IMG/VR virus record: IMGVR_UViG_3300017941_000022
Span: 1 to 37,336 of that record
Origin: a virus
DNA length: 37,336 nucleotides
Reading direction: 5' to 3' (one strand)
Part shown: in pieces, positions 3,757 to 31,505 of the stretch
How the letters are laid out: each line of letters begins with the position of its first letter
How positions within the stretch are numbered: the stretch's first letter is position 1
Notes under the pieces: model-generated
Told to the model about the DNA's origin: nothing
Database searches by the model: none
The model's input: only the letters and a program-made list of their open reading frames with translations
Made by a program: the position numbers and the translations under genes

Positions 3757-5553
3757 ATGAATACTACTTTTGTAGCAGAAAACGAACCGGGATTTCACTT
3801 TGACTTCCTTATTGAAAAAGCATTCGCTCCCGATGTTGAAGATTTAGTAGTCATTGGAGTGGCATCTACTCCAAACATAGACCACGACAAAGAGCGGATG
3901 GCTGAGCCCGCTTTGAAAAGGATGGCGAGGATAATCAATGAGAAATCTGTACCGTTGAGAGTAGAACACCAGAAAGGAAACGGTGCAATTGTCGGAGACG
4001 TTGATAAAGCTTGGATTGATGACAGAAATAAACTTTGGGTTCAAGCAACATTAGATAAGAACAATCCAGCTGCAATGATGCTACATAGTGCGTTGAAAGC
4101 TGGTGCGAAATTAGGATTGTCAGTTGGGGGTCGTGTTAAGAGAGCTGTTCAAGAGTTAAATGAAGGACAGGGTCAATTTATAAGAGCATTCCATGATGTA
4201 ACTCTTGAAGAGGTTTCGGTTACACCCAGGCCATCGAATTATGACGCTTGGTTGTTAAACAAGAATTACATTGAAAAAGGTCAATCAGTTGACCATTTAT
4301 ATAATTCGCCTCTCTATGATGTTTTCTTATTTGAAAATCCAAAATTTGATTACTTGGCATCGATTGAAAAGTCGATACCAAAAGATGCTTGGAAAAAGGT
4401 CGAACCAGAAACTAATAACAATATAGTTATGGACATAAAAAACATAAAAAAGACAGAAACAACTGTAGAAGAGTCAACTAAACCGAAAGAGGAAAAAGCT
4501 GGTACGTCTGAGTCTCCTGTAGAACTTTATGAAGGAAAAGACGGACCAACGGCTGGTTTAGCTTCTAAAGCATATGTCGACCAGAAATTCGCAGATTTTT
4601 CAAAGACTGTTGCAGACGTTTTCAGAACTGAATTGAAGAAATTCACTGAGGAAGACGCAACTGGAACAACGAGAATGGCGGATGCTCCTCCAGCAGAAGA
4701 GCAGCCAGCCGATGACCAGCATCTTCCTGATGACAAAAAGGAAGAGAATCCTGCACAGGAAAGAGCCGTGAAGACTGGTGCTAATGGTTCTGATGAATTG
4801 GGTCAGAGAGAAAAGACCCCTGGCGCATCCATAAAGCAGCCAGCACATGACCAAGACAATCCTGACGGTGAGAAAAAAGAGAATCCTGCTCAGGTTAGAA
4901 CAGTAAAGACAGCTAGAGAATATTTGCGTGACTTGGCTCTTCGAATGAGAAAGGACACTGTAGAAAGTTCAACTTCTCCTACGGCGGAGAATGAAACGAA
5001 AGAAAAGGCTGATACTTCTGAGAAGACTCCAGAATGGAATACTGCAGAAGGCAAGAAAGAAGAAAAGGCGGCGACAGAGACTTCTGCTGCAGCGACTTCT
5101 GAGGATTTACCTACTGCGCATAAAGCAGAGGACGACTCAGAAGATGATTCGTCTATGGGTCACAAAGAAGCAGATTATAAGCTACCCGAAATAAATCGCA
5201 ATACTAAGAAACACGCAGATATCGATATGTTAGCTTTTTCGGTAGCAAAGTCAATTGACGATGCAGAAGCGAAATTTGCAAAATCAGGAAAAAGAGTTCC
5301 TGGCTTCAGACAGGTTATCGTTGATTTCATTCGTCAAGACTCTGAAATTCAGAAGTCAATCCGCGAGATGATGAGACAGCCGGGCGAAAAGAAATCAGTT
5401 ATCGTGGGAACGCCTTACGCATTCTTGAAAGATGGAACACGTTTGAGATTAATTCCAGATGACGCTTTCGTTCAGAAGTCATTTGACCCGAAAGCAAACT
5501 TCAAAGAAACATATAAGACTTATTTCTCTTCTCAGCAAGACGGGAAAAGATAA
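3757..5553 (+). CDS. Prohead protease with C-terminal scaffold-like extension, 598 aa
   Basis: Residues 1-170 match the HK97-type prohead maturation protease fold (clan SH): an early V-V-I-G-V-A-S-T-P strand, the candidate catalytic His71 in L-R-V-E-H-Q, the candidate catalytic Ser122 in L-G-L-S-V-G-G, and the closing T-L-E-E-V-S-V-T-P-R-P-S motif. In that family His, Ser and Glu cut the scaffold and capsid delta domain after assembly. Residues 225-598 are long, charged and low-complexity, with a repeated K-K-E-N-P-A-Q segment (about 328-334 and 373-379) and a compact C-terminal domain (485-598), typical of a scaffold that binds capsid protein. Fusion of protease and scaffold, with an internal start at Met225, is like the lambda C/Nu3 arrangement. 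The catalytic residues are assigned by motif only. Confidence 0.85.
   Translation: MNTTFVAENEPGFHFDFLIEKAFAPDVEDLVVIGVASTPNIDHDKERMAEPALKRMARIINEKSVPLRVEHQKGNGAIVGDVDKAWIDDRNKLWVQATLDKNNPAAMMLHSALKAGAKLGLSVGGRVKRAVQELNEGQGQFIRAFHDVTLEEVSVTPRPSNYDAWLLNKNYIEKGQSVDHLYNSPLYDVFLFENPKFDYLASIEKSIPKDAWKKVEPETNNNIVMDIKNIKKTETTVEESTKPKEEKAGTSESPVELYEGKDGPTAGLASKAYVDQKFADFSKTVADVFRTELKKFTEEDATGTTRMADAPPAEEQPADDQHLPDDKKEENPAQERAVKTGANGSDELGQREKTPGASIKQPAHDQDNPDGEKKENPAQVRTVKTAREYLRDLALRMRKDTVESSTSPTAENETKEKADTSEKTPEWNTAEGKKEEKAATETSAAATSEDLPTAHKAEDDSEDDSSMGHKEADYKLPEINRNTKKHADIDMLAFSVAKSIDDAEAKFAKSGKRVPGFRQVIVDFIRQDSEIQKSIREMMRQPGEKKSVIVGTPYAFLKDGTRLRLIPDDAFVQKSFDPKANFKETYKTYFSSQQDGKR
4396..4402 (+). promoter_or_regulatory. 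AAGGTCG motif inside the protease gene
   Basis: AAGGTCG lies 26 nt before the in-frame ATG at 4429. The same heptamer at a similar distance precedes six other start codons, so it supports an internal initiation site for the scaffold. Confidence 0.4.
4429..5553 (+). CDS. Nested scaffold protein, internal start in the protease gene
   Basis: An in-frame ATG (Met225 of the long product) begins a 374-residue segment that contains none of the protease domain. It opens M-D-I-K-N-I-K-K and is rich in Glu, Lys, Ala, Thr and Pro up to about residue 260 of the nested product, as expected of a scaffold: a predicted coiled coil around K-A-Y-V-D-Q-K-F-A-D-F, two copies of E/K-N-P-A-Q-x-R-x-V-K-T, and a folded C-terminus that would contact the capsid shell. 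The AAGGTCG motif 26 nt upstream and an A/T-rich leader match other starts in this genome. Separate expression is inferred; only the fusion is certain as an open frame. Confidence 0.5.
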   Translation: MDIKNIKKTETTVEESTKPKEEKAGTSESPVELYEGKDGPTAGLASKAYVDQKFADFSKTVADVFRTELKKFTEEDATGTTRMADAPPAEEQPADDQHLPDDKKEENPAQERAVKTGANGSDELGQREKTPGASIKQPAHDQDNPDGEKKENPAQVRTVKTAREYLRDLALRMRKDTVESSTSPTAENETKEKADTSEKTPEWNTAEGKKEEKAATETSAAATSEDLPTAHKAEDDSEDDSSMGHKEADYKLPEINRNTKKHADIDMLAFSVAKSIDDAEAKFAKSGKRVPGFRQVIVDFIRQDSEIQKSIREMMRQPGEKKSVIVGTPYAFLKDGTRLRLIPDDAFVQKSFDPKANFKETYKTYFSSQQDGKR

Positions 5554-8163: not shown

Positions 8164-9165
8164 ATGTCTCAACCTCAAATTCAGTCAGGATGGTGGCAAT
8201 CTCCAGCTGGTTCTCCGTTAACTCCGACAGGAGCTGCTAAAGTTTCTGAAATTGATAATCCGTATATAACAAAAGACGAGTATATAGAATCTCCAGAAGC
8301 TTTTGGCGCGGGAATTACTGCAACGTCACCCGATGGTTTATATCAGAGCGGAATGCTCGATAAGATAATTTTAAGAGCTAGTTCTTTTGTAAACAGGTTT
8401 TGCAGAAGATGGTTTGATACTCAGACAATAGATGAGATTCATACTGGATTTACTGTGAAGCCTTTCAACCCAAGGCTTGTTACTGTTGTTTGCAGAAACG
8501 CGCCATTGCAAGCAATTAATAGTATTTATATCCAGGTTCTTCAGTGGTTCATTCAGGTTCAGACAACTCCATTACAGGGTAGTTATCTACAAATACAGCC
8601 AGATTGGGGAACATATAAAATTGTTCCTCTTTTGAGCACAGCTGGTTCGGGAACTGGTTCTCCAATTCCAGCTGAAATTCTTGATAAAGTGCCTCTTGGT
8701 GTTTTATGGACGAATTACACCTTTGGGTTTGGACAGGTAGTAACTGGTTATACGCTATCAAATATAGCTAATCAGCCAGGACAGTACACTACCTACCAAG
8801 CAAAAGATTATAACTATAGATTATGGGCGCCAAGTCAACCAGTGAATGTTTATGTTGGTCCCACTTTGGCTCTTCCTTCGGCATACTCTATAGATTATCC
8901 GAATGGCATTGTTACTTTTTCGAGTGACTTAGGTTCACCTGCTGTAGTGACTACAGACTTTACGACCAATAACACATTGCCGTATGACATCAAGTATGCA
9001 GTTATCAAAATCGTAACGAAACAGATTCTTCAGGGAATGCAAAACCCAATGGGGTTTACTAGTATGAATATAGCTGGCTACAGTGTCAGTTATGGAGATG
9101 AATATATGAAAGAGATAAAAGAAATATTGGCTCCGTATAAGAGAAACGCGATAACGATAATTTAA
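8164..9165 (+). CDS. Head-tail connector/adaptor protein, 333 aa
   Basis: The ends resemble the gp6/gp15-type adaptor that sits under the portal. The N-terminal part has a helix I-L-R-A-S-S-F-V-N-R-F-C-R-R-W-F (about 75-92). The C-terminus is the typical helical block P-Y-D-I-K-Y-A-V-I-K-I-V-T-K-Q-I-L-Q-G-M, then G-Y-S-V-S-Y-G-D-E-Y-M-K-E-I-K-E-I-L-A-P-Y-K-R. The family is usually 100-200 residues; here a beta-rich insertion of about 130 residues (100-270) makes it longer. Its stop overlaps the next ATG (TAATG), so the downstream Lys-Gly-Ser protein is translationally coupled. The mRNA is almost leaderless. Confidence 0.65.
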   Translation: MSQPQIQSGWWQSPAGSPLTPTGAAKVSEIDNPYITKDEYIESPEAFGAGITATSPDGLYQSGMLDKIILRASSFVNRFCRRWFDTQTIDEIHTGFTVKPFNPRLVTVVCRNAPLQAINSIYIQVLQWFIQVQTTPLQGSYLQIQPDWGTYKIVPLLSTAGSGTGSPIPAEILDKVPLGVLWTNYTFGFGQVVTGYTLSNIANQPGQYTTYQAKDYNYRLWAPSQPVNVYVGPTLALPSAYSIDYPNGIVTFSSDLGSPAVVTTDFTTNNTLPYDIKYAVIKIVTKQILQGMQNPMGFTSMNIAGYSVSYGDEYMKEIKEILAPYKRNAITII

Positions 9166-25559: not shown

Positions 25560-25632
25560 GCTTTGGCAGCTCATTGGAAATGAGCGTTCCCCTGAAGAGG
25601 GAAAGATAATGGTTCGATTCCATTCCGAAGCA
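25560..25632 (+). tRNA. tRNA-Phe(GAA)
   Basis: Acceptor GCTTTGG/CCGAAGC, D arm GCTC/GAGC with GG, anticodon loop CTGAAGA, T arm AATGG-TTCGATT-CCATT. Discriminator A, no full CCA. It lies upstream of the promoter at 25824, so it is on another transcript than the main array. Confidence 0.95.
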
Positions 25633-25634
25633 CT

Positions 25635-25805
25635 ATGGCTTTATTAATATGTGAAAAATGTAAAGCTATAATAGGCCCTCTGGGTGCTGAGATTGACACA
25701 GAGGAAATGTTATGCAGAGACTGCGCGATAAAAAAATACGGCCAAGCGTACGTCGATAATGCGGAAAATATGTCAGAAGATATAGAGGAAGAAGGCGATG
25801 ACTAG
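25635..25805 (+). CDS. Zinc-ribbon-like microprotein, 56 aa
   Basis: A small open frame begins 3 nt after the tRNA-Phe and ends TAG. It has C-E-K-C at residues 6-9 and C-R-D-C at 27-30, a two-CxxC zinc ribbon, and a very acidic tail (S-E-D-I-E-E-E-G-D-D). The clean Cys pattern and acidic end support that it is real. Such phage zinc ribbons often bind host RNA polymerase or nucleic acid; here that is only a suggestion. No Shine-Dalgarno sequence is visible. Confidence 0.65.
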   Translation: MALLICEKCKAIIGPLGAEIDTEEMLCRDCAIKKYGQAYVDNAENMSEDIEEEGDD

Positions 25806-25823
25806 TTATTAACATGGGGGGCC

Positions 25824-25857
25824 TTTACAAAAAAATAATAGCAGTTTAGTATATAAT
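25824..25857 (+). promoter_or_regulatory. Promoter of the main tRNA array
   Basis: TTTACA at 25824-25829, then 17 nt to TAGTAT (25847-25852) overlapping TATAAT (25852-25857). The first tRNA starts 14-18 nt further on. Confidence 0.6.
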
Positions 25858-25870
25858 CAGATATTCTAAT

Positions 25871-25938
25871 AGCGTGGCCTCCGGGAGGTGTCGGCACTCC
25901 AAACGCTGACTCGATGGGTTCAACTCCTATTCACGCTG
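25871..25938 (+). tRNA. tRNA-Trp(CCA), shortened D arm
   Basis: Acceptor AGCGTGG/TCACGCT, anticodon loop CTCCAAA, T arm ATGGG-TTCAACT-CCTAT, discriminator G. Only 14 nt separate acceptor and anticodon stems (CCTC-CGG-GAGG hairpin), so the D arm is reduced. The top anticodon pair is A-C. Confidence 0.75.
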
Positions 25939-25959
25939 CAAAGCAGATGGCTCCACCAG

Positions 25960-26000
25960 CCACTGCGCCATAAATGGAAAATATGGTAACTCGGTGGCGA
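25960..26000 (+). other. Inter-tRNA hairpin
   Basis: In the spacer after tRNA-Trp, GCCAC near 25960 can pair with GTGGC near 25994, enclosing GCCAT/ATGGT. The pairing is less perfect than in later spacers. Confidence 0.4.
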
Positions 26001-26188
26001 TGTATTATAGAAGAAGCAAAGAGGAGAGGAAGATGCGACGTGCTGCAAGGAAGCAAGTCATCGACCATACTCTTGACAGAAAACGCTATAATGCATTGCA
26101 TCCCCGAGGAAATAAAAAAGGCGGTCGGAGAAGAGGAAGTTCTTTTAAAGAATTGGCATATCGTTCAACGGTTAGGACACGGTTCTGA
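26000..26188 (+). CDS. Possible basic microprotein, 62 aa
   Basis: The open frame gives a very basic peptide (M-Y-Y-R-R-S-K-E-E-R-K-M-R-R-A-A-R-K-Q, later G-N-K-K-G-G-R-R-R-G-S-S-F). It fills a 200-nt gap between tRNA-Trp and tRNA-Ile, and its last 12 codons run into the tRNA-Ile gene, which speaks against the full length. A second frame (25974-26360) crosses several tRNAs and is less likely. No Shine-Dalgarno sequence and no known family. Confidence 0.3.
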   Translation: MYYRRSKEERKMRRAARKQVIDHTLDRKRYNALHPRGNKKGGRRRGSSFKELAYRSTVRTRF

Positions 26189-26225
26189 TAAGACCGGGAA
26201 AATGGTTCAATTCCATTTATGCCAA
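26154..26225 (+). tRNA. tRNA-Ile(GAT)
   Basis: Acceptor TGGCATA/TATGCCA (perfect), anticodon stem CGGTT/GACCG with loop CTGATAA, T arm ATGG-TTCAATT-CCAT. Discriminator A. One nucleotide separates it from the next tRNA. Confidence 0.92.
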
Positions 26226-26226
26226 C

Positions 26227-26297
26227 GCGTCGGTAACACAGTGGTAGTGTGTCTGCCTTCCAAGCAGATTACGTGGGTTCGATTCCCATCCGGTGCT
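26227..26297 (+). tRNA. tRNA-Gly(TCC)
   Basis: Acceptor GCGTCGG/CCGGTGC with two G-T pairs, anticodon stem TCTGC/GCAGA, loop CTTCCAA, T arm GTGGG-TTCGATT-CCCAT, discriminator T. Confidence 0.93.
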
Positions 26298-26350
26298 CCG
26301 GTATTAGAAATGTTGGAGACGACATGGAAGATACGCGACCTTTACAAAAT

Positions 26351-26422
26351 GCGCAGTTAGTTTAACGGATAGAATTCTTGGCTTCGAACCAAGAGATGAG
26401 GGTCCGATTCCTTCACAGCGCA
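26351..26422 (+). tRNA. tRNA-Arg(TCG)
   Basis: Acceptor GCGCAGT/ACAGCGC with one A-A mismatch, anticodon stem CTTGG/CCAAG, loop CTTCGAA, T arm GAGGG-TCCGATT-CCTTC (T54C55 instead of TT), discriminator A. Confidence 0.88.
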
Positions 26423-26435
26423 CATAAGTAAGTTT

Positions 26436-26556
26436 GCTGGTTTGGAAAAGACTAAACCAGCCGACAGGGGAGAATCGAAAGATGCTGTCCAATGGAAACT
26501 AGGACAGGGTACTGCCTACGGGATGTACTTTCCGGACTCCGACGATTCTTGCTCTG
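26436..26556 (+). ncRNA. Structured spacer RNA between tRNA-Arg and tRNA-Lys
   Basis: Hairpin GCTGGTTT/AAACCAGC (26436-26443, 26454-26461), then a junction closed by AGAATCG/CGATTCT (26471-26477, 26543-26549) that holds CTGTCC/GGACAG (26485-26490, 26502-26507). ACAG (26464) and CTGT (26553) may close it further. At about 120 nt this is the most elaborate spacer in the first half of the array. Confidence 0.5.
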
Positions 26557-26561
26557 TAAAT

Positions 26562-26634
26562 GCCTCGCTAACTCAATTGGCAGAGTAGCTCCCTCTTAAG
26601 GAGAAAGTTGAAGGTCCGAATCCTTCGCGTGGCA
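26562..26634 (+). tRNA. tRNA-Lys(CTT)
   Basis: Acceptor GCCTCGC/GCGTGGC with one T-T mismatch, anticodon loop CTCTTAA on CTCC/GGAG, T arm GAAGG-TCCGAAT-CCTTC, discriminator A. Confidence 0.88.
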
Positions 26635-26638
26635 CAAG

Positions 26639-26726
26639 GGTGAAGATTGAACGCGGTACAATCTCACCTGGGGGTACCCATTTTTATCGCCTGTGTGCGT
26701 CGACCGATTGGTCGATGGCAACAGGC
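26639..26726 (+). other. Inter-tRNA hairpins
   Basis: GGTG-A-AGATTG pairs with CAATCT-CACC (26639-26649, 26659-26668, one bulge). GCCTGT/ACAGGC (26689-26694, 26721-26726) encloses TCGACC/GGTCGA (26700-26705, 26710-26715). Confidence 0.6.
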
Positions 26727-26729
26727 CTT

Positions 26730-26801
26730 GTCCCTGTCGTTCAATGGACAGGACGTATCTTTCCTAAAGATATAATCGAGGTTCGATTCCTCGTGGGGAC
26801 A
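26730..26801 (+). tRNA. tRNA-Arg(CCT)
   Basis: Acceptor GTCCCTG/TGGGGAC, anticodon stem TATCT/AGATA with loop TTCCTAA, T arm CGAGG-TTCGATT-CCTCG, discriminator A. Confidence 0.92.
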
Positions 26802-26805
26802 CAAG

Positions 26806-26883
26806 GAAGTTGGGTGTGGTACACGCCAGTACGGTTGGTAGGGATTCCTACCCGTTACGTCACAATCTGGCAACACCAACTTC
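26806..26883 (+). other. Inter-tRNA extended stem
   Basis: GAAGTTGGGTGT (26806-26817) pairs with ACACCAACTTC (26873-26883) with one bulged G. Nested inside are GCCAG/CTGGC (26825-26829, 26867-26871) and GGTAGG/CCTACC (26837-26842, 26847-26852). Confidence 0.7.
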
Positions 26884-26887
26884 AATT

Positions 26888-26959
26888 GCCCTTGTCGTCC
26901 AATGGAAAGGACACAAAGCTTCTAACTTTGGAATCAGGGTTCGATTCCTTGCAGGGGTA
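26888..26959 (+). tRNA. tRNA-Arg(TCT)
   Basis: Acceptor GCCCTTG/CAGGGGT, anticodon stem CAAAG/CTTTG with loop CTTCTAA, T arm CAGGG-TTCGATT-CCTTG, discriminator A. Confidence 0.92.
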
Positions 26960-26960
26960 C

Positions 26961-27038
26961 GTGCTTCTAAAGCACTGGCGGTGTGGGGACGGGTGCAGTA
27001 ATGTTCTCGTCATTCTCTCCCGGGATAGAAATGTCCCG
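26961..27038 (+). other. Inter-tRNA hairpins
   Basis: GTGCTT/AAGCAC (26961-26966, 26970-26975, 3-nt loop) and CGGGA/TCCCG (27021-27025, 27034-27038). No outer helix is evident in this spacer. Confidence 0.5.
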
Positions 27039-27042
27039 TTAT

Positions 27043-27115
27043 TGCTCCTTAGCTCGATTGGCAGAGCAGTCGCCTTTTAAGCGAAAAGGTGCGGGTTCGA
27101 CTCCCGCAGGGGCAA
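27043..27115 (+). tRNA. tRNA-Lys(TTT)
   Basis: Acceptor TGCTCCT/AGGGGCA, D arm AGCTC/GAGC, anticodon loop CTTTTAA on TCGC/GCGA, T arm GCGGG-TTCGACT-CCCGC, discriminator A. Confidence 0.95.
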
Positions 27116-27116
27116 C

Positions 27117-27242
27117 AAAGACGGACAGTGATGAAAGGGCTACTTCGGTAAATCTAAATTGAAACCTTAGATTATTGGTTCGACTCCAATTTCCCCCACA
27201 TAACGGGGGAAATAAAACCCTTACTACTTTTCTTCCGTTTTT
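27117..27242 (+). ncRNA. Circularly permuted tRNA-like element, Phe-like anticodon arm
   Basis: An outer 9-bp helix AAAGACGGA/TCCGTTTTT (27117-27125, 27234-27242) encloses, in order, an anticodon arm CTAAA-TTGAAAC-CTTAG (27154-27170, GAA in loop, top pair A-C), a T arm ATTGG-TTCGACT-CCAAT (27174-27190), the 3' acceptor strand TTCCCCC (27191-27197), then ACATAAC, then a perfect 5' acceptor strand GGGGGAA (27205-27211). No matching 5' strand lies upstream. The order is that of a permuted tRNA gene opened in the D arm, but no normal D stem can be formed, so a tRNA-derived structural element is also possible. Confidence 0.5.
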
Positions 27243-27244
27243 AT

Positions 27245-27316
27245 ACCTCGTTAACTCATTGGCAGAGTGGCTGTTCTACACACAGTTCGCAGGGGGTTCG
27301 ATTCCTCCACGGGGTA
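27245..27316 (+). tRNA. tRNA-Val(TAC), C33
   Basis: Acceptor ACCTCGT/ACGGGGT, D arm ACTC/GAGT, anticodon stem GCTGT/ACAGT with loop TCTACAC (C at position 33), T arm GGGGG-TTCGATT-CCTCC, discriminator A. A 9-nt-loop reading would give CTA, which is less likely. Confidence 0.8.
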
Positions 27317-27318
27317 CA

Positions 27319-27480
27319 TGTTTCTTAATTGAGACATTGGTCGGGTGGTGACCTTCTGTTTAAACACAACGGGCAGTGACGTAACAGTTACTTCGTCAAA
27401 TGGTATGACAATTCCCATCCAAGGAATTATCGTAGGTTCAATTCCTACAGTAATCAATCTGTTACATATTTTCTCCCGTT
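27319..27480 (+). other. Spacer helices around the Gly-like tRNA
   Basis: TGTTTC/GAGACA near 27319-27336 and GGTC-GGGTGGT-GACC (a D-arm-like hairpin) come first. AACGGG (27368-27373) pairs with CCCGTT (27475-27480), and GTAACAG (27381-27387) with CTGTTAC (27459-27465), both enclosing the Gly-like tRNA. Confidence 0.5.
27386..27456 (+). tRNA. tRNA-Gly-like (TCC), degenerate
   Basis: Acceptor AGTTACT/AGTAATC with the first pair A-C, short D stem GTC/GAC, anticodon stem ATTCC/GGAAT with loop CATCCAA (A at position 33), T arm GTAGG-TTCAATT-CCTAC. It may be inactive or structural; it lies inside two flanking helices. Confidence 0.55.
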
Positions 27481-27482
27481 AT

Positions 27483-27554
27483 AGGCAATTCGTTCAATGG
27501 TTAGGACCGCAATCTTATAAGTTGCGTACATTGGTTCGATTCCAATATTGCCTA
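27483..27554 (+). tRNA. tRNA-Ile(TAT)
   Basis: Acceptor AGGCAAT/ATTGCCT, D arm GTTC/GGAC, anticodon stem GCAAT/GTTGC with loop CTTATAA, T arm ATTGG-TTCGATT-CCAAT, discriminator A. The UAU anticodon reads AUA without lysidine, which is uncommon in bacteria. Confidence 0.92.
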
Positions 27555-27557
27555 CAA

Positions 27558-27661
27558 GGTAATTGAGACCGAAAGGTTATGTAAAAATATCCTACCCATG
27601 TTGCAACTATTGGTGGTACGTTCTTATATAATCCACCTGAAGGGAATGGAGACCAATTACC
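27558..27661 (+). other. Inter-tRNA extended stem
   Basis: GGTAATTG (27558-27565) pairs perfectly with CAATTACC (27654-27661). Inside are GACC-GAAA-GGTT and GGTGG/CCACC (27612-27616, 27633-27637). Confidence 0.7.
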
Positions 27662-27666
27662 AAGAT

Positions 27667-27737
27667 TCTCCTGTAGGTCAATGGTAGACCGAGCGGCTGT
27701 TAACCGCTGAATGTTGGTTCGATTCCAACTGGGAGAG
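27667..27737 (+). tRNA. tRNA-Asn(GTT)
   Basis: Acceptor TCTCCTG/TGGGAGA, anticodon stem AGCGG/CCGCT with loop CTGTTAA, T arm GTTGG-TTCGATT-CCAAC, discriminator G. Confidence 0.93.
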
Positions 27738-27740
27738 CAA

Positions 27741-27826
27741 GGTTCTCTGAATCGTAAGTAAGCAGTGTAGTGGTAAGGCGACCGTGTGACGTTCACGGTG
27801 TTATGAGGTTTTTGGTTCAGAGAACC
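27741..27826 (+). other. Inter-tRNA element with 11-bp terminal repeat
   Basis: GGTTCTCTGAA (27741-27751) pairs perfectly with TTCAGAGAACC (27816-27826). The interior contains a D-loop-like AGTGGTAAGG and a stem CCGTG-TGACGTT-CACGG that resembles an anticodon arm, but no T arm. Confidence 0.7.
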
Positions 27827-27832
27827 GATAAT

Positions 27833-27904
27833 TTCGCGGTGGTGGAACAGTAACCACGTCTGTCTCATAAGCAGAAGAAGAGGGGGCAGCACCCTCCTGC
27901 GAAA
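27833..27904 (+). tRNA. tRNA-Met(CAT) with non-canonical D and T loops
   Basis: Acceptor TTCGCGG/CTGCGAA, D stem GTGG/CCAC with loop AACAGTAA (no GG), anticodon stem TCTGT/GCAGA with loop CTCATAA, T stem GAGGG/CCCTC with loop GGCAGCA instead of TTCRANT. Discriminator A. All four stems fold, yet the usual D-T loop contact cannot form. Confidence 0.8.
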
Positions 27905-27905
27905 C

Positions 27906-27976
27906 GCCCTACTAGTTTAGTGGCAGAACTACTCCCTTGTAACGAGTAGACGAAAGTTCGATTCTTTCGTAGGGCT
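27906..27976 (+). tRNA. tRNA-Thr(TGT)
   Basis: Acceptor GCCCTAC/GTAGGGC (perfect), anticodon stem ACTCC/CGAGT with C-C at the top pair, loop CTTGTAA, T arm GAAAG-TTCGATT-CTTTC, discriminator T. Confidence 0.9.
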
Positions 27977-28000
27977 CTGTCCTACCTGATTAGACGACCC

Positions 28001-28023
28001 GAGGTATGGTAAAGGCATACCTC
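28001..28023 (+). other. Inter-tRNA hairpin
   Basis: GAGGTATG pairs perfectly with CATACCTC around a 7-nt loop GTAAAGG. Confidence 0.7.
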
Positions 28024-28027
28024 AAAT

Positions 28028-28098
28028 GCCTTCCTAGTTTAGTGGAAGAACACTGCTTTCGTAAAGCAGGAGCATAGGTTCGATTCCTATGGTTGGCT
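28028..28098 (+). tRNA. tRNA-Thr(CGT)
   Basis: Acceptor GCCTTCC/GGTTGGC with two adjacent T-T mismatches, anticodon stem CTGCT/AGCAG, loop TTCGTAA, T arm ATAGG-TTCGATT-CCTAT, discriminator T. Confidence 0.85.
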
Positions 28099-28108
28099 CT
28101 TGGATTTT

Positions 28109-28155
28109 TACGGCTTTTCCTACCTCTGTACAAGGTTCGAAAGTGGAAAACCGTA
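28109..28155 (+). other. Inter-tRNA extended stem
   Basis: TACGG-c-TTTTCC (28109-28120) pairs with GGAAAACCGTA (28145-28155), 11 bp with one bulged C. The loop contains AAGGTTCGAAAG, which resembles a T loop. Confidence 0.7.
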
Positions 28156-28157
28156 TT

Positions 28158-28228
28158 GCGATAGTCGTATATTGGCAGTACGACGCCTTGCCAAGGCGTA
28201 AGAGGGAGTTCGATTCTCCTCTATTGCT
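28158..28228 (+). tRNA. tRNA-Gly(GCC)
   Basis: Acceptor GCGATAG/CTATTGC, anticodon stem ACGCC/GGCGT with loop TTGCCAA, T arm GGGAG-TTCGATT-CTCCT, discriminator T followed by an encoded CCA (28229-28231). Confidence 0.93.
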
Positions 28229-28241
28229 CCACCGTCCCGAA

Positions 28242-28314
28242 GGAGCGCAGAAATCGGGAGGGAGGTTCTAGGGTCTTGATGGACGCATTAAGAAAACCGA
28301 ACCCTATGCGCTCC
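28242..28314 (+). other. Inter-tRNA extended stem
   Basis: GGAGCGCA (28242-28249) pairs perfectly with TGCGCTCC (28307-28314), and TAGGGT (28269-28274) with the adjoining ACCCTA (28301-28306). On the 3' side the two strands are continuous. Confidence 0.7.
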
Positions 28315-28316
28315 AC

Positions 28317-28388
28317 GCCGCCATGATGCTAGTGGTAACATGCTTTCATGGTAAGAAAGATTCGCAGGTTCGATTCCTGCTGGTGGCT
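28317..28388 (+). tRNA. tRNA-Thr(GGT)
   Basis: Acceptor GCCGCCA/TGGTGGC, anticodon stem CTTTC/GAAAG with loop ATGGTAA, T arm GCAGG-TTCGATT-CCTGC, discriminator T. Confidence 0.93.
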
Positions 28389-28391
28389 CAA

Positions 28392-28452
28392 AGAAAAAGA
28401 AGAAGTGAAGAATGGTAAGAATTCTAGATAAAACTTACCGACTTCTTTTTCT
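28392..28452 (+). other. Inter-tRNA extended stem
   Basis: AGAAAAAGAAG (28392-28402) pairs with CTTCTTTTTCT (28442-28452), 11 bp, and GGTAAG/CTTACC (28414-28419, 28434-28439) lies inside. Confidence 0.7.
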
Positions 28453-28455
28453 AAT

Positions 28456-28542
28456 GCGTTGGTAGTCCGGTAGGGGGCCGGGGCTGTCTGTAAAACAGTT
28501 GGTGGCTTAGCCCTCCCGATGGTTCGACTCCATCTCAACGCA
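28456..28542 (+). tRNA. tRNA-Tyr(GTA), class II
   Basis: Acceptor GCGTTGG/TCAACGC, anticodon stem GCTGT/ACAGT with loop CTGTAAA, long variable arm, T arm GATGG-TTCGACT-CCATC, discriminator A. Confidence 0.93.
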
Positions 28543-28751
28543 CAAAGCTATTGGTAATTCGTCGAGGAAAGGTTATTCTTTTCCCCGGCGAAGTACGTGC
28601 CGGATTAGCTGTTCGACAACTCAATCAGGGAGAGACGCGTATGAAACGCAGACGGAAGATGATTCAGATGGCGCGACACGACGACCCACAGACCAGCGTC
28701 TAGTCGCGAAACCGATGGAGGGGCAGGCGAAGCTTTGCCCCTCCAGATAAT
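28543..28751 (+). other. 210-nt structured spacer between tRNA-Tyr and tRNA-His
   Basis: No tRNA is found. Hairpins: 28558-28592 (14-nt arms, GAGGAAAG/CTTTTCC core), AGACGC/GCGTCT (28633-28638, 28696-28701) and GGAGGGGCA/TGCCCCTCC (28717-28725, 28736-28744). A 20-codon basic frame M-K-R-R-R-K-M-I-Q-M at 28641-28703 has AGGGAGA 7 nt upstream, so a microprotein is possible. Confidence 0.45.
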
Positions 28752-28824
28752 GGTGTTACTAGTGTAATTGGCAGCACTCCTCTTTGTGACAGAGTCAGTA
28801 TGGGTTCGAGTCCCATGTATCACC
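28752..28824 (+). tRNA. tRNA-His(GTG)
   Basis: G at -1 (28752) faces C73 (28824), the His identity pair. Acceptor GTGTTAC/GTATCAC has one T-T mismatch. Anticodon loop TTGTGAC, T arm ATGGG-TTCGAGT-CCCAT. CCA is encoded at 28825-28827. Confidence 0.92.
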
Positions 28825-28827
28825 CCA

Positions 28828-28898
28828 CGGAAATTGGTGTATCAGCTGCACACATGTTTCGGGTACATGTTGGCTGAGTTCAACTCTCAGATTTCCGA
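28828..28898 (+). tRNA. tRNA-Pro(CGG)
   Basis: Acceptor CGGAAAT/ATTTCCG (C1-G72 as in bacterial tRNA-Pro), anticodon stem CATGT/ACATG with loop TTCGGGT, T arm CTGAG-TTCAACT-CTCAG, discriminator A. CCA (28899-28901) overlaps the next tRNA. Confidence 0.93.
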
Positions 28899-28899
28899 C

Positions 28900-28970
28900 C
28901 AGGCTATAGTGAAACGGCATCACACGTGTTTTGGGTACACGTTTTCTCGGTTCGAGTCCGAGTAGCTTGA
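28900..28970 (+). tRNA. tRNA-Pro(TGG)
   Basis: Acceptor CAGGCTA/TAGCTTG, anticodon stem CGTGT/ACACG with loop TTTGGGT, T arm CTCGG-TTCGAGT-CCGAG, discriminator A. Its first two bases are also the CA of the preceding tRNA CCA end. Confidence 0.92.
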
Positions 28971-28974
28971 CAAG

Positions 28975-29013
28975 GTTTTCATTTAGCAATGCGGATAGCT
29001 TCGAAATGAAAAC
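28975..29013 (+). other. Inter-tRNA hairpin
   Basis: GTTTTCATTT (28975-28984) pairs perfectly with AAATGAAAAC (29004-29013) around a 19-nt loop. Confidence 0.75.
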
Positions 29014-29019
29014 TGGTTT

Positions 29020-29090
29020 CCCTTCATCGTTTAACGGCAGGACGTTCCCCTGTCACGGGAAAGGAAGCGGTTCAATTCCGCTTGGAGGGG
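29020..29090 (+). tRNA. tRNA-Asp(GTC)
   Basis: Acceptor CCCTTCA/TGGAGGG, anticodon stem TTCCC/GGGAA with loop CTGTCAC, T arm AGCGG-TTCAATT-CCGCT, discriminator G as expected for Asp. C1-G72 is unusual for Asp. Confidence 0.9.
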
Positions 29091-29093
29091 CAA

Positions 29094-29137
29094 AGAGATA
29101 TCGTTGTGTCGGTTTCTTGTCGATGACGGATATCTCT
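29094..29137 (+). other. Inter-tRNA hairpin
   Basis: AGAGATATC (29094-29102) pairs perfectly with GATATCTCT (29129-29137) around a 26-nt interior. Confidence 0.75.
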
Positions 29138-29140
29138 AAT

Positions 29141-29215
29141 GGCATCATCTGCTAGTCTGGACTAGGCAACGCGGTTTTCACCCGCGGAACATCGGTTCGA
29201 ATCCGATTGGTGCTA
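29141..29215 (+). tRNA. tRNA-Glu(TTC)
   Basis: Acceptor GGCATCA/TGGTGCT, anticodon stem CGCGG/CCGCG with loop TTTTCAC, T arm ATCGG-TTCGAAT-CCGAT, discriminator A. Confidence 0.93.
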
Positions 29216-29226
29216 CTGAGACAAAT

Positions 29227-29313
29227 AGTGAGATGGGTGAGAGGATTAAACCGGTAGTCTTGAAAACTACTAGCCCTTAATTGGACTCAAGCGTTCGAAT
29301 CGCTTTCTCACTG
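29227..29313 (+). tRNA. tRNA-Ser(TGA), class II
   Basis: Acceptor AGTGAGA/TCTCACT (perfect), anticodon stem GTAGT/ACTAC with loop CTTGAAA, long variable arm, T arm AAGCG-TTCGAAT-CGCTT, discriminator G. Confidence 0.94.
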
Positions 29314-29337
29314 CACAGAAAAAATCTTGCAGGTTCT

Positions 29338-29347
29338 GTGGTATAAT
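29338..29347 (+). promoter_or_regulatory. Extended -10 promoter of the HNH gene
   Basis: TGTGGTATAAT, with TATAAT at 29342-29347 inside a short inverted repeat TCTGT/ACAGA. The ATG begins 7 nt after the box, so the mRNA should be leaderless. Confidence 0.55.
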
Positions 29348-29353
29348 ACAGAC

Positions 29354-29881
29354 ATGAAGCTTGTAGGAGCTTGTTCTGGTAAGATGCACGTAAAGTCTTG
29401 TGGCAAGAGACACGCGTATTGTCTTATATGTAAACCCAATAGAAAGAATCCCGCAAAGGGAAACAGAAATTGGGGATTTAGAAATCACGATAGATTGGTA
29501 AAGGGAGCAGAAACGAAAATAAGAAATGGTTCTGCTGCTGGAGAAAACAATCCGAATTATCGTGGCGGAAAAATCAAACATAGTTTAGTTGGTTGGAATA
29601 GAGTTAGAAGACAAGTTTGGGAAAGAGATAAGTTGTGTAGAGTTTGCAATAAACTACCTCATAAAAACAGAAGATTTGATATTCATCATAGAATACCTAG
29701 AAGAAAAGGCGGTACAGATTCTTTAGAAAATCTTCTTGGAGTTCATCATGGATGTCACATGAAATTAGAAACTGGAAAAGTGGCCGAGAGGATTAAGGCG
29801 GTCGTCCCGAAAACGACTAATCCGCAAGGATTCACAAGTTCGAATCTTGTCTTTTCCGCATGGGCTTGTAATTGGCTTTGA
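29354..29881 (+). CDS. HNH endonuclease inside the tRNA array, 175 aa
   Basis: Residues 1-30 carry a zinc-knuckle-like C-G-K-R-H-A-Y-C-L-I-C. The HNH core is clear: L-C-R-V-C-N-K (95-100), F-D-I-H-H-R-I-P-R-R-K-G-G (109-120), D-S-L-E-N-L-L-G-V-H-H-G-C-H-M (122-136). NUMOD-type G-E-N-N-P-N-Y-R-G-G lies at 63-72. It has its own leaderless promoter. The last 35 codons (from residue 141) run through a complete tRNA-Ser(CGA) and a little beyond, so the C-terminal tail is translated tRNA sequence and probably has no catalytic role. A free-standing homing nuclease that inserted next to, or was captured by, a tRNA gene would explain this. Confidence 0.85.
   Translation: MKLVGACSGKMHVKSCGKRHAYCLICKPNRKNPAKGNRNWGFRNHDRLVKGAETKIRNGSAAGENNPNYRGGKIKHSLVGWNRVRRQVWERDKLCRVCNKLPHKNRRFDIHHRIPRRKGGTDSLENLLGVHHGCHMKLETGKVAERIKAVVPKTTNPQGFTSSNLVFSAWACNWL
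29774..29858 (+). tRNA. tRNA-Ser(CGA), class II, within HNH gene
   Basis: Acceptor GGAAAAG/CTTTTCC (perfect), anticodon stem GTCGT/ACGAC with loop CCCGAAA (C33), long variable arm, T arm ACAAG-TTCGAAT-CTTGT, discriminator G. It lies entirely inside the reading frame of the HNH nuclease on the same strand. Confidence 0.92.
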
Positions 29882-30038
29882 TTACGTTCGCCCTTTGATG
29901 TTGCGTTACCGACCATGGGAGCTGAGGTCGTTAAACTCGTTCTCAAAAATAAATGCTGAAAAACGCATTACACTTGCAGATTACTTAGGTATTTCTGCGA
30001 CGCCTTTGCATTTGTCTGCTTACTCGTTTGTATAAGGT
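29882..30038 (+). other. Spacer without recognised gene
   Basis: About 157 nt with no tRNA that I can fold. A hairpin GTAAT/ATTAC lies near 29869-29886 and AATGC/GCATT near 29951-29968. TTGCAT and TATAAG near 30007-30037 could be a weak promoter. Confidence 0.3.
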
Positions 30039-30171
30039 GTTATATAAGTAAGCTGGTGGAGCGGCCCGAATCCCCTTACAAGGAAAAGTTGCCAGTTCAC
30101 AATTGGATATGTAACGTAGAAAATATTAAAGAAGCAATGTAAGACGGCGGTTCAACTCCGCCCAAGTCCAC
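30039..30171 (+). ncRNA. Composite tRNA-like element (Val-like anticodon arm, Ala-like 3' end)
   Basis: GTTATAT (30039-30045) can pair with ATGTAAC (30109-30115) around a D-arm-like GCTGGTGGAGC, a loop CTTACAA (UAC) and a T-loop-like CCAG-TTCACAA-TTGG. A second, perfect T arm GGCGG-TTCAACT-CCGCC (30146-30162) and CAAGTCCA follow, but no upstream strand complements CAAGTCC. It may be a rearranged or split tRNA or a remnant. Confidence 0.35.
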
Positions 30172-30182
30172 GGATTATTTAA

Positions 30183-30269
30183 GATGGGTTGACTGAGCGG
30201 CTTAAGGTGTCTCTTTGCTAAAGAGAAGGCCCTTCACGGGACCCAGTGGTTCGAATCCACTACCCATCG
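30183..30269 (+). tRNA. tRNA-Ser(GCT), class II
   Basis: Acceptor GATGGGT/ACCCATC (perfect), anticodon stem TCTCT/AGAGA with loop TTGCTAA, variable arm GGCCCTTCACGGGACC, T arm AGTGG-TTCGAAT-CCACT, discriminator G. Confidence 0.94.
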
Positions 30270-30293
30270 CTGAATAAATTAAAAAAATAAAAA

Positions 30294-30539
30294 ATGTCAA
30301 ACGTAACCATTTATTCAACACCAACTTGTTATTTTTGCAAAAAGGCAAAGGAATTTTTCAAGAAAAACAACATACAGTATGACGAGGTGAACGTTTCAGA
30401 ATCAGAGAAATCTTTAGATGATTTCGTCAAAATGTCTGGAAGTAGAGCTGTCCCAGTTATCGTTATCAATGGAGAACAGTTTCTTGGATATGATGAAGAA
30501 GTTTTAAAGAAGAAATTGGCGATATCGACTAAAGGTTAG
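30294..30539 (+). CDS. Glutaredoxin-like protein, 81 aa
   Basis: The protein is a minimal glutaredoxin/NrdH-type thioredoxin fold: V-T-I-Y-S-T-P-T-C-Y-F-C-K-K-A-K with the redox pair Cys12-x-x-Cys15, a cis-Pro in R-A-V-P-V-I-V-I-N-G (about 52-61), and G-Y-D-E-E near the end where the family has G-F/Y-D. It would reduce disulphides, for example in a ribonucleotide reductase, using glutathione or thioredoxin reductase. The last seven residues (L-A-I-S-T-K-G) are encoded by bases that also form the 5' end of tRNA-Glu(CTC), so the gene overlaps a tRNA by 22 nt. It sits alone among tRNAs; no Shine-Dalgarno sequence is visible. Confidence 0.88.
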   Translation: MSNVTIYSTPTCYFCKKAKEFFKKNNIQYDEVNVSESEKSLDDFVKMSGSRAVPVIVINGEQFLGYDEEVLKKKLAISTKG

Positions 30540-30589
30540 GTCGGTACCCTCTCAAGGTATAAATATGGGTTCGATTCCCATTATCGCTA
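30518..30589 (+). tRNA. tRNA-Glu(CTC)
   Basis: Acceptor GGCGATA/TATCGCT, D arm GAC/GTC with GG, anticodon stem GTACC/GGTAT with loop CTCTCAA, T arm ATGGG-TTCGATT-CCCAT, discriminator A. Its first 22 nt overlap the glutaredoxin gene. Confidence 0.9.
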
Positions 30590-30606
30590 CTGGGTCGTAA
30601 CCGCAC

Positions 30607-30680
30607 GCACCGGTGATGGAACTGGGATACATATTCGTCTTAGAAACGAAGTTTTAGGGGTTCGACTCCCCTCTGGTGCA
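30607..30680 (+). tRNA. tRNA-Leu(TAG), short variable loop
   Basis: Acceptor GCACCGG/CTGGTGC, Leu-like D region TGATGGAACTGGGATACAT, anticodon stem TTCGT/ACGAA with loop CTTAGAA, T arm AGGGG-TTCGACT-CCCCT, discriminator A, CA follows. Only 5 nt (GTTTT) form the variable loop, where bacterial Leu tRNAs have a long arm. Confidence 0.85.
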
Positions 30681-30684
30681 CAGA

Positions 30685-30768
30685 GCTCTCTTGGTGGAAT
30701 GGTAGACACAAACGCCTCAAAAGCGTTCGTCCGCAAGGGCAGTAGAGGTTCGACTCCTCTAGGGAGCA
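30685..30768 (+). tRNA. tRNA-Leu(CAA), class II
   Basis: Acceptor GCTCTCT/AGGGAGC, anticodon stem AACGC/GCGTT with loop CTCAAAA, variable arm CGTCCGCAAGGGCAGT, T arm AGAGG-TTCGACT-CCTCT, discriminator A. Confidence 0.94.
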
Positions 30769-30771
30769 CTA

Positions 30772-30885
30772 TGATACGAAGGTGAGAGGCACGAGTAAAG
30801 TTATAGTTGGAGTGCGGTCCGAGTGGAACCTTAAGGTATTTTGACTATAACGTAAGCCCTAAACTCAATATCTCAAATCGTATCA
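30772..30885 (+). ncRNA. Large inter-tRNA structured element
   Basis: TGATACGA (30772-30779) pairs with TCGTATCA (30878-30885). Inside, TGAGA/TCTCA and GAGT/ACTC continue the stem, then GTTATAGT (30800-30807) pairs perfectly with ACTATAAC (30844-30851) around GGTCC-gagt-GGAACC. This is the longest regular spacer structure, about 114 nt. Confidence 0.65.
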
Positions 30886-30889
30886 GATT

Positions 30890-30970
30890 GCCATAGTGGC
30901 GGAATGGTATACGCGGAACACTTAAAACGTTCTGGCGAAAGTCATGTGGGTTCGACTCCCACCTATGGTA
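30890..30970 (+). tRNA. tRNA-Leu(TAA), class II
   Basis: Acceptor GCCATAG/CTATGGT, anticodon stem GAACA/CGTTC with A-C at the top pair, loop CTTAAAA, short variable arm TGGCGAAAGTCAT, T arm GTGGG-TTCGACT-CCCAC, discriminator A. Confidence 0.92.
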
Positions 30971-30971
30971 C

Positions 30972-31043
30972 CGCCTTATCTTTCAATGGATAGGAAATCT
31001 CCCTGCGAAGGAGGAAATTGTGGTTCGATTCCACATGGGGCGA
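30972..31043 (+). tRNA. tRNA-Arg(GCG)
   Basis: Acceptor CGCCTTA/TGGGGCG, anticodon loop CTGCGAA on CTCC/GGAG, T arm TGTGG-TTCGATT-CCACA, discriminator A. The anticodon begins with G, where bacteria normally use ACG with inosine. Confidence 0.9.
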
Positions 31044-31044
31044 C

Positions 31045-31116
31045 GGGCTTGTAGTGATAAAAGTAGCACGGGATACTTGCAATATCTCAGAGGCGGGGCA
31101 GTACCGCCCAGGTCCA
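31045..31116 (+). tRNA. tRNA-Ala(TGC) with non-canonical D and T loops
   Basis: Acceptor GGGCTTG/CAGGTCC, D stem GTG/CAC with loop ATAAAAGTAG (no GG), anticodon stem GGATA/TATCT with loop CTTGCAA, T stem GGCGG/CCGCC with loop GGCAGTA, discriminator A. Its loops match the tRNA-Met at 27833. Confidence 0.82.
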
Positions 31117-31119
31117 CAT

Positions 31120-31254
31120 GGAATAGTTAAGTCTGGCTGGTAAAATGTACAACGACTTTTATGTCGTGCGTAAAAGGCAGAATAGGCCAGATAGATTATT
31201 CCTACTGATGAGAGAATGAAATGGTTCTCTTTCTTTAATTTCAATTCTGCCTTT
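31120..31254 (+). ncRNA. Inter-tRNA element with two alternative folds
   Basis: Fold A: GGAATA/TATTCC (31120-31125, 31197-31202), TCTGGC/GCCAGA (31132-31137, 31186-31191), ACGAC/GTCGT (31152-31156, 31163-31167). Fold B: AAAGGCAGAAT (31173-31183) with ATTCTGCCTTT (31244-31254), 11 perfect bp just before tRNA-Gln. The 5' part of fold B overlaps the interior of fold A. Confidence 0.6.
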
Positions 31255-31256
31255 AT

Positions 31257-31327
31257 TGCCGAATCCTCTAATGGTAGGAGGACAAGCTCTGAACTTGAAA
31301 ATGGAGGTTCGATTCCTTCTTCGGCAG
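31257..31327 (+). tRNA. tRNA-Gln(CTG)
   Basis: Acceptor TGCCGAA/TTCGGCA (perfect), anticodon loop CTCTGAA on CAAG/CTTG, T arm GGAGG-TTCGATT-CCTTC, discriminator G. Confidence 0.92.
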
Positions 31328-31333
31328 CTGGAA

Positions 31334-31404
31334 TGCAGGGTCGTCTAGTGGTAGGACCGGAGCCCTTGAAACTCTGTAGCTTGGTTCGAATCCAAGCCCT
31401 GCAG
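31334..31404 (+). tRNA. tRNA-Gln(TTG), C33
   Basis: Acceptor TGCAGGG/CCCTGCA (perfect), anticodon stem GGAGC/ACTCT with C-A at the top pair, loop CCTTGAA (C33), T arm CTTGG-TTCGAAT-CCAAG, discriminator G. Confidence 0.88.
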
Positions 31405-31411
31405 CCGTATT

Positions 31412-31485
31412 GACGTGGTAACCAAGTCTGGCCAGGTGGTTGCCTGCAAAGCAATCTTACGCGGGTTCAAATCCCGCCCACGTCT
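31412..31485 (+). tRNA. tRNA-Cys(GCA)
   Basis: Acceptor GACGTGG/CCACGTC (perfect), anticodon stem GTTGC/GCAAT with loop CTGCAAA, T arm GCGGG-TTCAAAT-CCCGC, discriminator T. Last tRNA of the array. Confidence 0.94.
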
Positions 31486-31505
31486 CAGTGTGATAAGCAA
31501 CTATT

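Follow-up and report, generated by a model that had tools for sequence, protein, structure and literature searches.

Probable Y RNAs in the spacers of a phage tRNA array, and their relatives in phages encoding Ro60

Background

Y RNAs that mimic tRNA are said to be widespread in bacteria (Chen et al. 2014, RNA 20:1715), with a count that reportedly exceeds 250 species, bacteria and phages together. Between the tRNAs of the phage T4 tRNA cluster lie the stable non-tRNA RNAs C and D (species 1 and 2), which are not known to be linked to Ro60. Non-tRNA RNAs among phage tRNAs are the subject here too, the likeness to T4 being one of description. Virus record IMGVR_UViG_3300017941_000022 of IMG/VR (37,336 bases, with head and tail genes; called the window throughout) contains a tRNA array in which, with a probability of about 0.85, tRNAs and small structured RNAs share one transcription unit and two spacers are phage Y RNAs.

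Among described Y RNAs, YrlA (Rfam RF02553) has ends that form a long interrupted stem, a permuted module that runs, in the Rfam alignment, from the T-arm through a closed acceptor-like hairpin to the D-arm, and an association with Ro60 (TROVE domain) genes. The elements described below share the interrupted stem and, in the kin, the company of Ro60 genes, and several of the kin give sub-threshold matches to the Rfam model. They differ from YrlA in that the window elements are missed by this model; in that their signature AGUGAY/GYUACUUC/UUUUCU departs from the Rfam consensus; in that the second window element and several kin contain a tRNA in normal order; and in that many copies reside in tRNA arrays, distant from the Ro60 gene in the phages G021, G022 and G025. 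Judged by sequence, they would work like a Y RNA, yet fall outside the YrlA family as modelled in Rfam. Y RNAs of YrlB and other types have no tRNA module; by description, they are matched by short elements of the kin (at least 59 nt) which consist of Ro stem and loop only, but no such short element was found in the window.

The YrlB name comes from the operon rsr-yrlBA-rtcBA, according to PMC7790460, where in Deinococcus a Y RNA is described to tether Ro60 to PNPase for the decay of structured RNA, and where competitive inhibition of an anticodon nuclease by YrlA is put forward as a suggestion, not a result. PMC7824862 classes the TROVE proteins that some jumbo phages encode with RNA repair functions, and PMC7765460 notes a Ro60-like protein of Vibrio phage pir03. 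GOLLD and ROOL are structured non-coding RNAs borne in tRNA arrays (PMC12286853); they differ from the present elements in being large, and the window array has no Rfam match to either. A literature search of partial coverage, which is no proof of novelty, returned no report of Y RNAs inside phage tRNA arrays, nor of a normal-order tRNA within a Ro stem.

Results

Two probable Y RNAs between tRNA genes

ARAGORN detects 33 tRNAs and a tmRNA in the array (25560-31486), and only tRNA and tmRNA are above threshold in the Rfam scan of the same region. The stretches 27117-27244 and 27368-27482 are alike in sequence (z 6.4). Aligned with a Y RNA of G018, a virus record related to the window through the major capsid protein (MCP), both reveal a common layout: stem 1 (6 bp), [ACT]AGUGAY, stem 2 (7 bp), YUACUUC, an inner part, the second strand of stem 2, a short stretch with UUUUCU at its end, and the second strand of stem 1. 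The fixed signature of the two-part stem is AGUGAY / GYUACUUC / UUUUCU.

27120-27239, + strand: probable Y RNA 1; R1 46.6 bits, E 2.6e-9; descriptor score 25.8; fold z -2.95
27368-27480, + strand: probable Y RNA 2; R1 49.0 bits, E 7e-10; descriptor score 28.0, all 13 pairs formed; fold z -3.63
27386-27456, + strand: tRNA-Gly(tcc) as called by ARAGORN; here read as the tRNA module belonging to Y RNA 2

R1 is a covariance model made from eight short Y RNAs that come from other phages (five loci: L165, L169, L170, L172 and L174); its matches in these loci and in their duplicates are by construction. A second model, R2, includes the window elements. The best descriptor score over 30 shuffled arrays was 21.3. 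No third Y RNA was found in the array by R1 or by a rescan with R2.

Y RNA 1 occupies the entire spacer between tRNA-Lys and tRNA-Val (27117-27244). Its Ro stem is formed by GACGGA-CAGUGAU-GAAAGGG-CUACUUC and CCCUUAC-UACUUUUCU-UCCGUU, and its tRNA-like module follows a YrlA-like permuted order (T-arm, closed acceptor-like hairpin) with no recognisable D-arm. This spacer was at first taken for a permuted working tRNA, an idea dropped once the Y RNA signature was found.

In Y RNA 2 the Ro stem, formed by AACGGG-CAGUGAC-GUAACAG-UUACUUC and CUGUUAC-AUAUUUUCU-CCCGUU, surrounds a tRNA-like module in normal order. The tRNA-Gly called within it carries A at position 33, where a functional tRNA has a pyrimidine, normally U. 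It is the sole purine at this position among the 33 ARAGORN tRNAs; elsewhere in the array C33 is found in three tRNAs, and T in the tRNAs at 27043 and 30518. Because of this A the module is likely a tRNA mimic, and the tRNA-Gly annotation doubtful. By covariance it passes as a tRNA (RF00005, 49.9 bits), a score that shows the quality of the mimic, not function. Another tRNA-Gly(TCC) is present at 26227.

Both elements have one of the traits by which Y RNAs are broadly recognised, namely ends paired into a long stem with a conserved interrupted part predicted to bind Ro60. The complete permuted module of YrlA (T-arm, closed acceptor, D-arm) is found in neither, the D-arm being absent from element 1 and element 2 being in normal order.

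Signature and covariation across phages

The signature pattern was found in 108 stretches of IMG/VR, 11 of which are marked by R1 at E<0.01. Of 120 pattern sites in the loci, picked by sequence pattern with several offsets tried and with the window copies (L001, L046-L050) left out, 20 show at least 12 of the 13 stem pairs; one of these 20 (L148) resides in a record without TROVE and is unmarked by R1. Over 23 elements, chosen with a descriptor that rewards pairing and hence a more circular sample than the 120 sites, 129 of 138 cells are paired in stem 1 and 153 of 161 in stem 2. When the partners were shuffled 500 times, stem 1 had on average 80 paired cells and at most 94, stem 2 on average 106 and at most 121. 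The Ro stems covary strongly across phages. In 84,980 bacterial and archaeal species genomes the pattern, searched in its exact form only, occurs in 36 stretches, none of which reaches E<0.01 with R2 (best 0.011), and TROVE was found in none of the six species genomes tested among those with pattern stretches.

Association with Ro60 genes

TROVE is encoded in 11 of 11 records of R1-marked pattern loci and in none of the 23 tested records of the 97 pattern loci unmarked by R1. It is also present in both further tRNA-array records found by the models (G153 and G154), and missing in four of four array records without Y RNA matches. The total is 13/13 records with Y RNAs versus 0/27 without (Fisher 8e-11), the 13 including three near copies and the close kin G021 and G022, and thus amounting to about ten independent cases.

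G018 is distant kin, its MCP being 45% identical to that of the window. It has a TROVE/Ro60 gene (63.4 bits over the whole protein, whose best part scores 34.9 bits), nine tRNA matches, three Y RNAs beside its tRNAs, and a sub-threshold YrlA match (41.8 bits). Since G018 alone among the 11 Y phages searched shares the capsid protein of the window, the Y RNA trait is spread over phages in which that protein is not shared. The capsid gene of G018 (C1:16844-18988) is split in the match into three stretches, a sign that one or more elements may intervene. In a further capsid relative, G003, a 1.1-kb apparently non-coding stretch (L040, about 1812-2920, - strand) lies ahead of, and includes, a tRNA and a tmRNA, and is otherwise free of Rfam matches.

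Named phage records with TROVE number 93, Streptomyces phages of S. lividans among them, and six loci out of these were scanned with R2. Matches at E<0.01 were found in two, csAssE-Sib and LR745206, and are absent in pv27, phiLo, Rabbitrun and BRock (best match in BRock 0.014). LR745206.1 (L309) is a phage of 634,780 bases, whose Ro60 gene is 52.6% identical to that of G018 and has a Y RNA match 0.4 kb upstream.

Y RNAs in the tRNA arrays of kin

The tRNA array of G025, a 236-kb phage with more than 20 tRNAs, contains ten Y RNAs. All have a tRNA 1-8 nt away on one side or both, and one occupies a whole spacer. Distances between Y RNAs and the Ro60 gene range from several kilobases to more than 10 kb in G021, G022 and G025. 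Y elements may contain a tRNA-like module in permuted or in normal order. Out of 46, 18 read as tRNA only when the sequence is doubled (permuted; a count obtained with many trims, without shuffled control), six are normal tRNAs as they stand, and 22, mostly short, are neither. The six come from L165 (two), L166 (two), L167 (one) and the window (27368-27480). In the normal-order topology the Ro stem can be described, from sequence, as leader and trailer of a tRNA.

Both topologies are represented in G153, which carries one Y RNA of each along with closed-stem spacers resembling those of the window; in the normal-order case an ARAGORN tRNA (L265:3845-3938) overlies the Y RNA (3827-3936). The annotated tRNA-Tyr and tRNA-Lys of the gut phage csAssE-Sib (OR575929.1; L308:8666-8738 and 8811-8884) lie inside R2 matches, with a third Y RNA match just upstream of these tRNAs and a gene for a 'Ro sixty-related protein' downstream. 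ARAGORN tRNA calls are found inside Ro stems in G021, G022 and G025 as well. Other normal-order modules look sound as tRNAs, among them tRNA-Asn at L074:2215-2288 (56.1 bits) and L084:751-824 (63.3 bits). On the - strand of L265, at about 510-765, lie two tRNA-like units, with no ARAGORN call, in which a D-like stretch apparently follows the anticodon arm (TATCAC, anticodon arm, AGTGTAATGGA, T-arm), possibly an unusual tRNA architecture.

Folding and closing stems of the spacers

Inverted repeats at the ends of a dozen or more spacers had been noticed in a sequence-only reading of the array, and taken to point to selection for folding. The six repeats named there as examples are all present. 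Terminal in a strict sense are seven cases, to which the interrupted terminal stems of the two Y RNAs may be added, the remainder being internal hairpins only. Folding is significantly better than in dinucleotide shuffles in 15 of 20 non-coding spacers (p<0.05; Fisher 7e-16). When folding was run again, z was below -2 for 15 of 18 spacers, with a median of -3.09. The median z was -0.24 for 54 pieces of the same lengths from the rest of the window, -1.83 for 11 window tRNAs, and -1.44 for 33 spacers taken from five phage arrays other than this one (Mann-Whitney p=0.002 versus window spacers), some of the latter being G025 spacers that proved to be Y RNAs. The array spacers fold far better than shuffled controls.

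A stem counts as closing here if it has 8 or more Watson-Crick pairs and lies no further than 8 nt from either spacer end. Such stems are found in 7 of 18 window spacers; the controls give 3 of 44 for spacers of five other arrays, 8 of 3600 for random window pieces and, in further phage arrays (among L211-L304), 6 of 163. These counts, the shuffle tests and the fold-z controls all support selection for folding. Closing stems begin 2-3 nt past the upstream tRNA and finish 3-6 nt ahead of the next. The seven spacers concerned, and two more with prominent hairpins, are the following.

26803-26887, + strand: Arg/Arg spacer; closing stem of 8 bp
27556-27666, + strand: Ile/Asn spacer; closing stem of 8 bp enclosing three inner hairpins; fold z only -1.44
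27739-27832, + strand: Asn/Met spacer; closing stem of 14 bp, including 11 unbroken Watson-Crick pairs
28390-28455, + strand: Thr/Tyr spacer; closing stem of 11 bp
28972-29019, + strand: Pro/Asp spacer; closing stem of 10 bp
29092-29140, + strand: Asp/Glu spacer; closing stem of 9 bp
30770-30889, + strand: Leu/Leu spacer; closing stem of 8 bp, rod-like fold, z about -4 to -5
28232-28316, + strand: Gly/Thr spacer; repeat GGAGCGCA/TGCGCTCC, left out of the strict count as its 5' arm begins 10 nt inside the spacer
26961-27042, + strand: Arg/Lys spacer; three hairpins

The third-best match to the Y RNA models in the array falls in the Thr/Tyr spacer (28397-28453; E 0.86 with R1, 0.37 with R2), the fourth-best in the Arg/Lys spacer (26990-27022); neither is significant. 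When 19 spacers were compared by BLAST with 300 loci, E<0.005 was obtained solely for the two Y elements, partly via their tRNA parts. The suggestion that the spacers are a family of small RNAs carried between tRNAs holds for two of them, members of a recurring phage Y RNA family; the same two show clear compensatory changes, and the others had no homologues to compare. Because of their position and folding, the remaining closed-stem spacers are most likely either further small RNAs, freed as the Y RNAs would be, or structured insulators.

Other genes of the array

Part of what had been taken for spacers are genes instead.

27833-27904, + strand: tRNA-Met(CAT); RF00005 42.7 bits and fold; T-loop GGCAGCA; missed by ARAGORN
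31045-31117, + strand: tRNA-Ala(TGC)-like gene; cloverleaf fold; T-loop GGCAGTA; absent from ARAGORN and Rfam output

In both a T-loop GGCAGNN replaces TTCRANN. Patterns of such tRNAs match 71 stretches of IMG/VR for tRNA-Met and 23 for the tRNA-Ala-like gene; T-loops of this type therefore recur in phages. A tRNA-Trp-like cloverleaf at 25872-25937 (anticodon loop CTCCAAA, a D-arm loop of just 3 nt, fold z -1.67) is likewise absent from ARAGORN and Rfam output.

Gaps between array genes measure either at most 16 nt (n=13) or at least 48 nt (n=21), with none in between, counting tRNA-Met 27833, the tRNA-Ala-like gene 31045 and the Trp-like gene at about 25872 as genes and excluding tRNA-Gly 27386. 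Given this bimodal distribution, the extra sequence of the array does not look like random filler.

The array also houses an HNH endonuclease gene (29315-29881), the open frame of which extends into tRNA-Ser 29774, and a glutaredoxin gene (30294-30539); both adjoin the tmRNA. Two proteins encoded beside the array had no relatives in IMG/VR in protein queries, and a DNA search against named phages gave nothing beyond single tRNA-sized matches. A Patescibacteria host, an idea raised by one familiar-looking protein, was dropped, none of 96 genomes matching in a search run without positive control. A hammerhead-like CTGATGA...GAAA near 31200, seen by eye, has no Rfam support and was set aside.

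Discussion

Several results weigh against reading the array as a mixed unit with two Y RNAs. Neither element is matched by the Rfam YrlA model (gathering threshold 69 bits), even with the cut-off relaxed to E<=1 or to E<=10. TROVE was not found in the 37-kb window, which is a fragment, nor in any of 17 other MCP relatives searched; a Ro60 gene would have to lie in the missing part of the genome. Just 2 of the 18 tested spacers are Y RNAs, and the rest have no homologue among the 300 loci compared. Finally, the G025 spacers that contain Y RNAs have fold z of -1.15, -0.77 and 0.89: Y RNAs need not out-fold shuffles, and the good folding of other spacers is therefore no sign of a Y RNA.

Inverted repeats could simply be common in an array of this composition, and structured spacers are indeed moderately common in other arrays; yet the dearth of closing stems in dinucleotide shuffles, random window pieces and the 163 other spacers leaves chance hardly credible. 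A more serious competitor, with chances somewhat short of even, is that the spacer hairpins have no independent life, serving as processing signals or insulators which prevent mispairing of neighbouring tRNAs and direct cleavage, be it by RNase III, by RNase P or at the 3' end. The placement of the closing stems a few nucleotides from both flanking tRNAs, the two classes of spacer length, and the finding that stem sequences differ and lack homologues in the BLAST comparison all fit this explanation. It is at odds with the 13 junctions that manage without a hairpin, with the rarity of such stems in other phage arrays (6/163), and with the two spacers that are Y RNAs. The spacers may instead be decaying tRNA genes, with leftover arms folding by chance: a T-arm is present in each Y element, a D-arm or anticodon-like stretch can be seen by eye in 27739-27832, and a homing-type HNH gene lies within the array. 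This is improbable, since Ro stems which stay paired through compensatory changes across phages, around a fixed signature, are not what decay would leave.

Two further explanations concern the tRNA-like modules. That 27117-27244 is a circularly permuted tRNA gene maturing to a working tRNA accounts for its T-arm and 3' acceptor strand (TTTCCCCCA), with GGGGGAAA no more than 7 nt further on, and for an ARAGORN match in the doubled sequence (weak, obtained with wide trims and without shuffled control). A first test of this kind, on 19 doubled spacers with trims up to 24 nt, gave no match, however; the D-arm is missing, the outer part is the Ro stem of a Y RNA, and a closed acceptor is built into Y RNAs of YrlA type, all of which makes a working tRNA very improbable. 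It is less far-fetched, though still unlikely, that Y RNAs with a tRNA module act as decoys, keeping host anticodon nucleases busy independently of Ro60. Phages use their own tRNAs to evade tRNA-targeting defences (PMC10264068), and the proposal in PMC7790460 that YrlA inhibits such a nuclease points the same way. Short Y RNAs without a tRNA module are common, on the other hand, and the strict TROVE link (13/13) indicates Ro60 as the partner.

If two of the spacers are indeed Y RNAs, their ends would form the two-part stem to which Ro60-type proteins bind, while the inner part would imitate tRNA. Since the Y RNAs lie a few nucleotides from tRNA ends, they would come loose through the same routine cuts as the tRNAs; the freed Y RNAs would then load onto the ring of a phage Ro60, and the tRNA-like module may recruit or distract tRNA-handling enzymes (processing, decay, possibly anticodon nucleases). 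In a wider and more tentative proposal, for which the odds are rather against than in favour, phage tRNA arrays would be production lines for Ro60 ribonucleoproteins, with interleaved Y RNAs freed by tRNA maturation; the second topology would tether real or near-real tRNAs to Ro60, and the remaining closed-stem spacers would be further RNA classes of the same kind.

The family provides a sequence signature for finding Y RNAs, up to ten per phage, in phage tRNA arrays. Some phage 'tRNA' annotations, such as tRNA-Gly in the window, tRNA-Tyr and tRNA-Lys in csAssE-Sib and calls in G021, G022 and G025, sit inside Ro stems, and the closed-stem spacers suggest that tRNA arrays hold more RNA cargo than annotation tools show. 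The use of Ro60 by phages to protect, mature or sequester tRNAs when the translation machinery is under attack becomes a testable idea.

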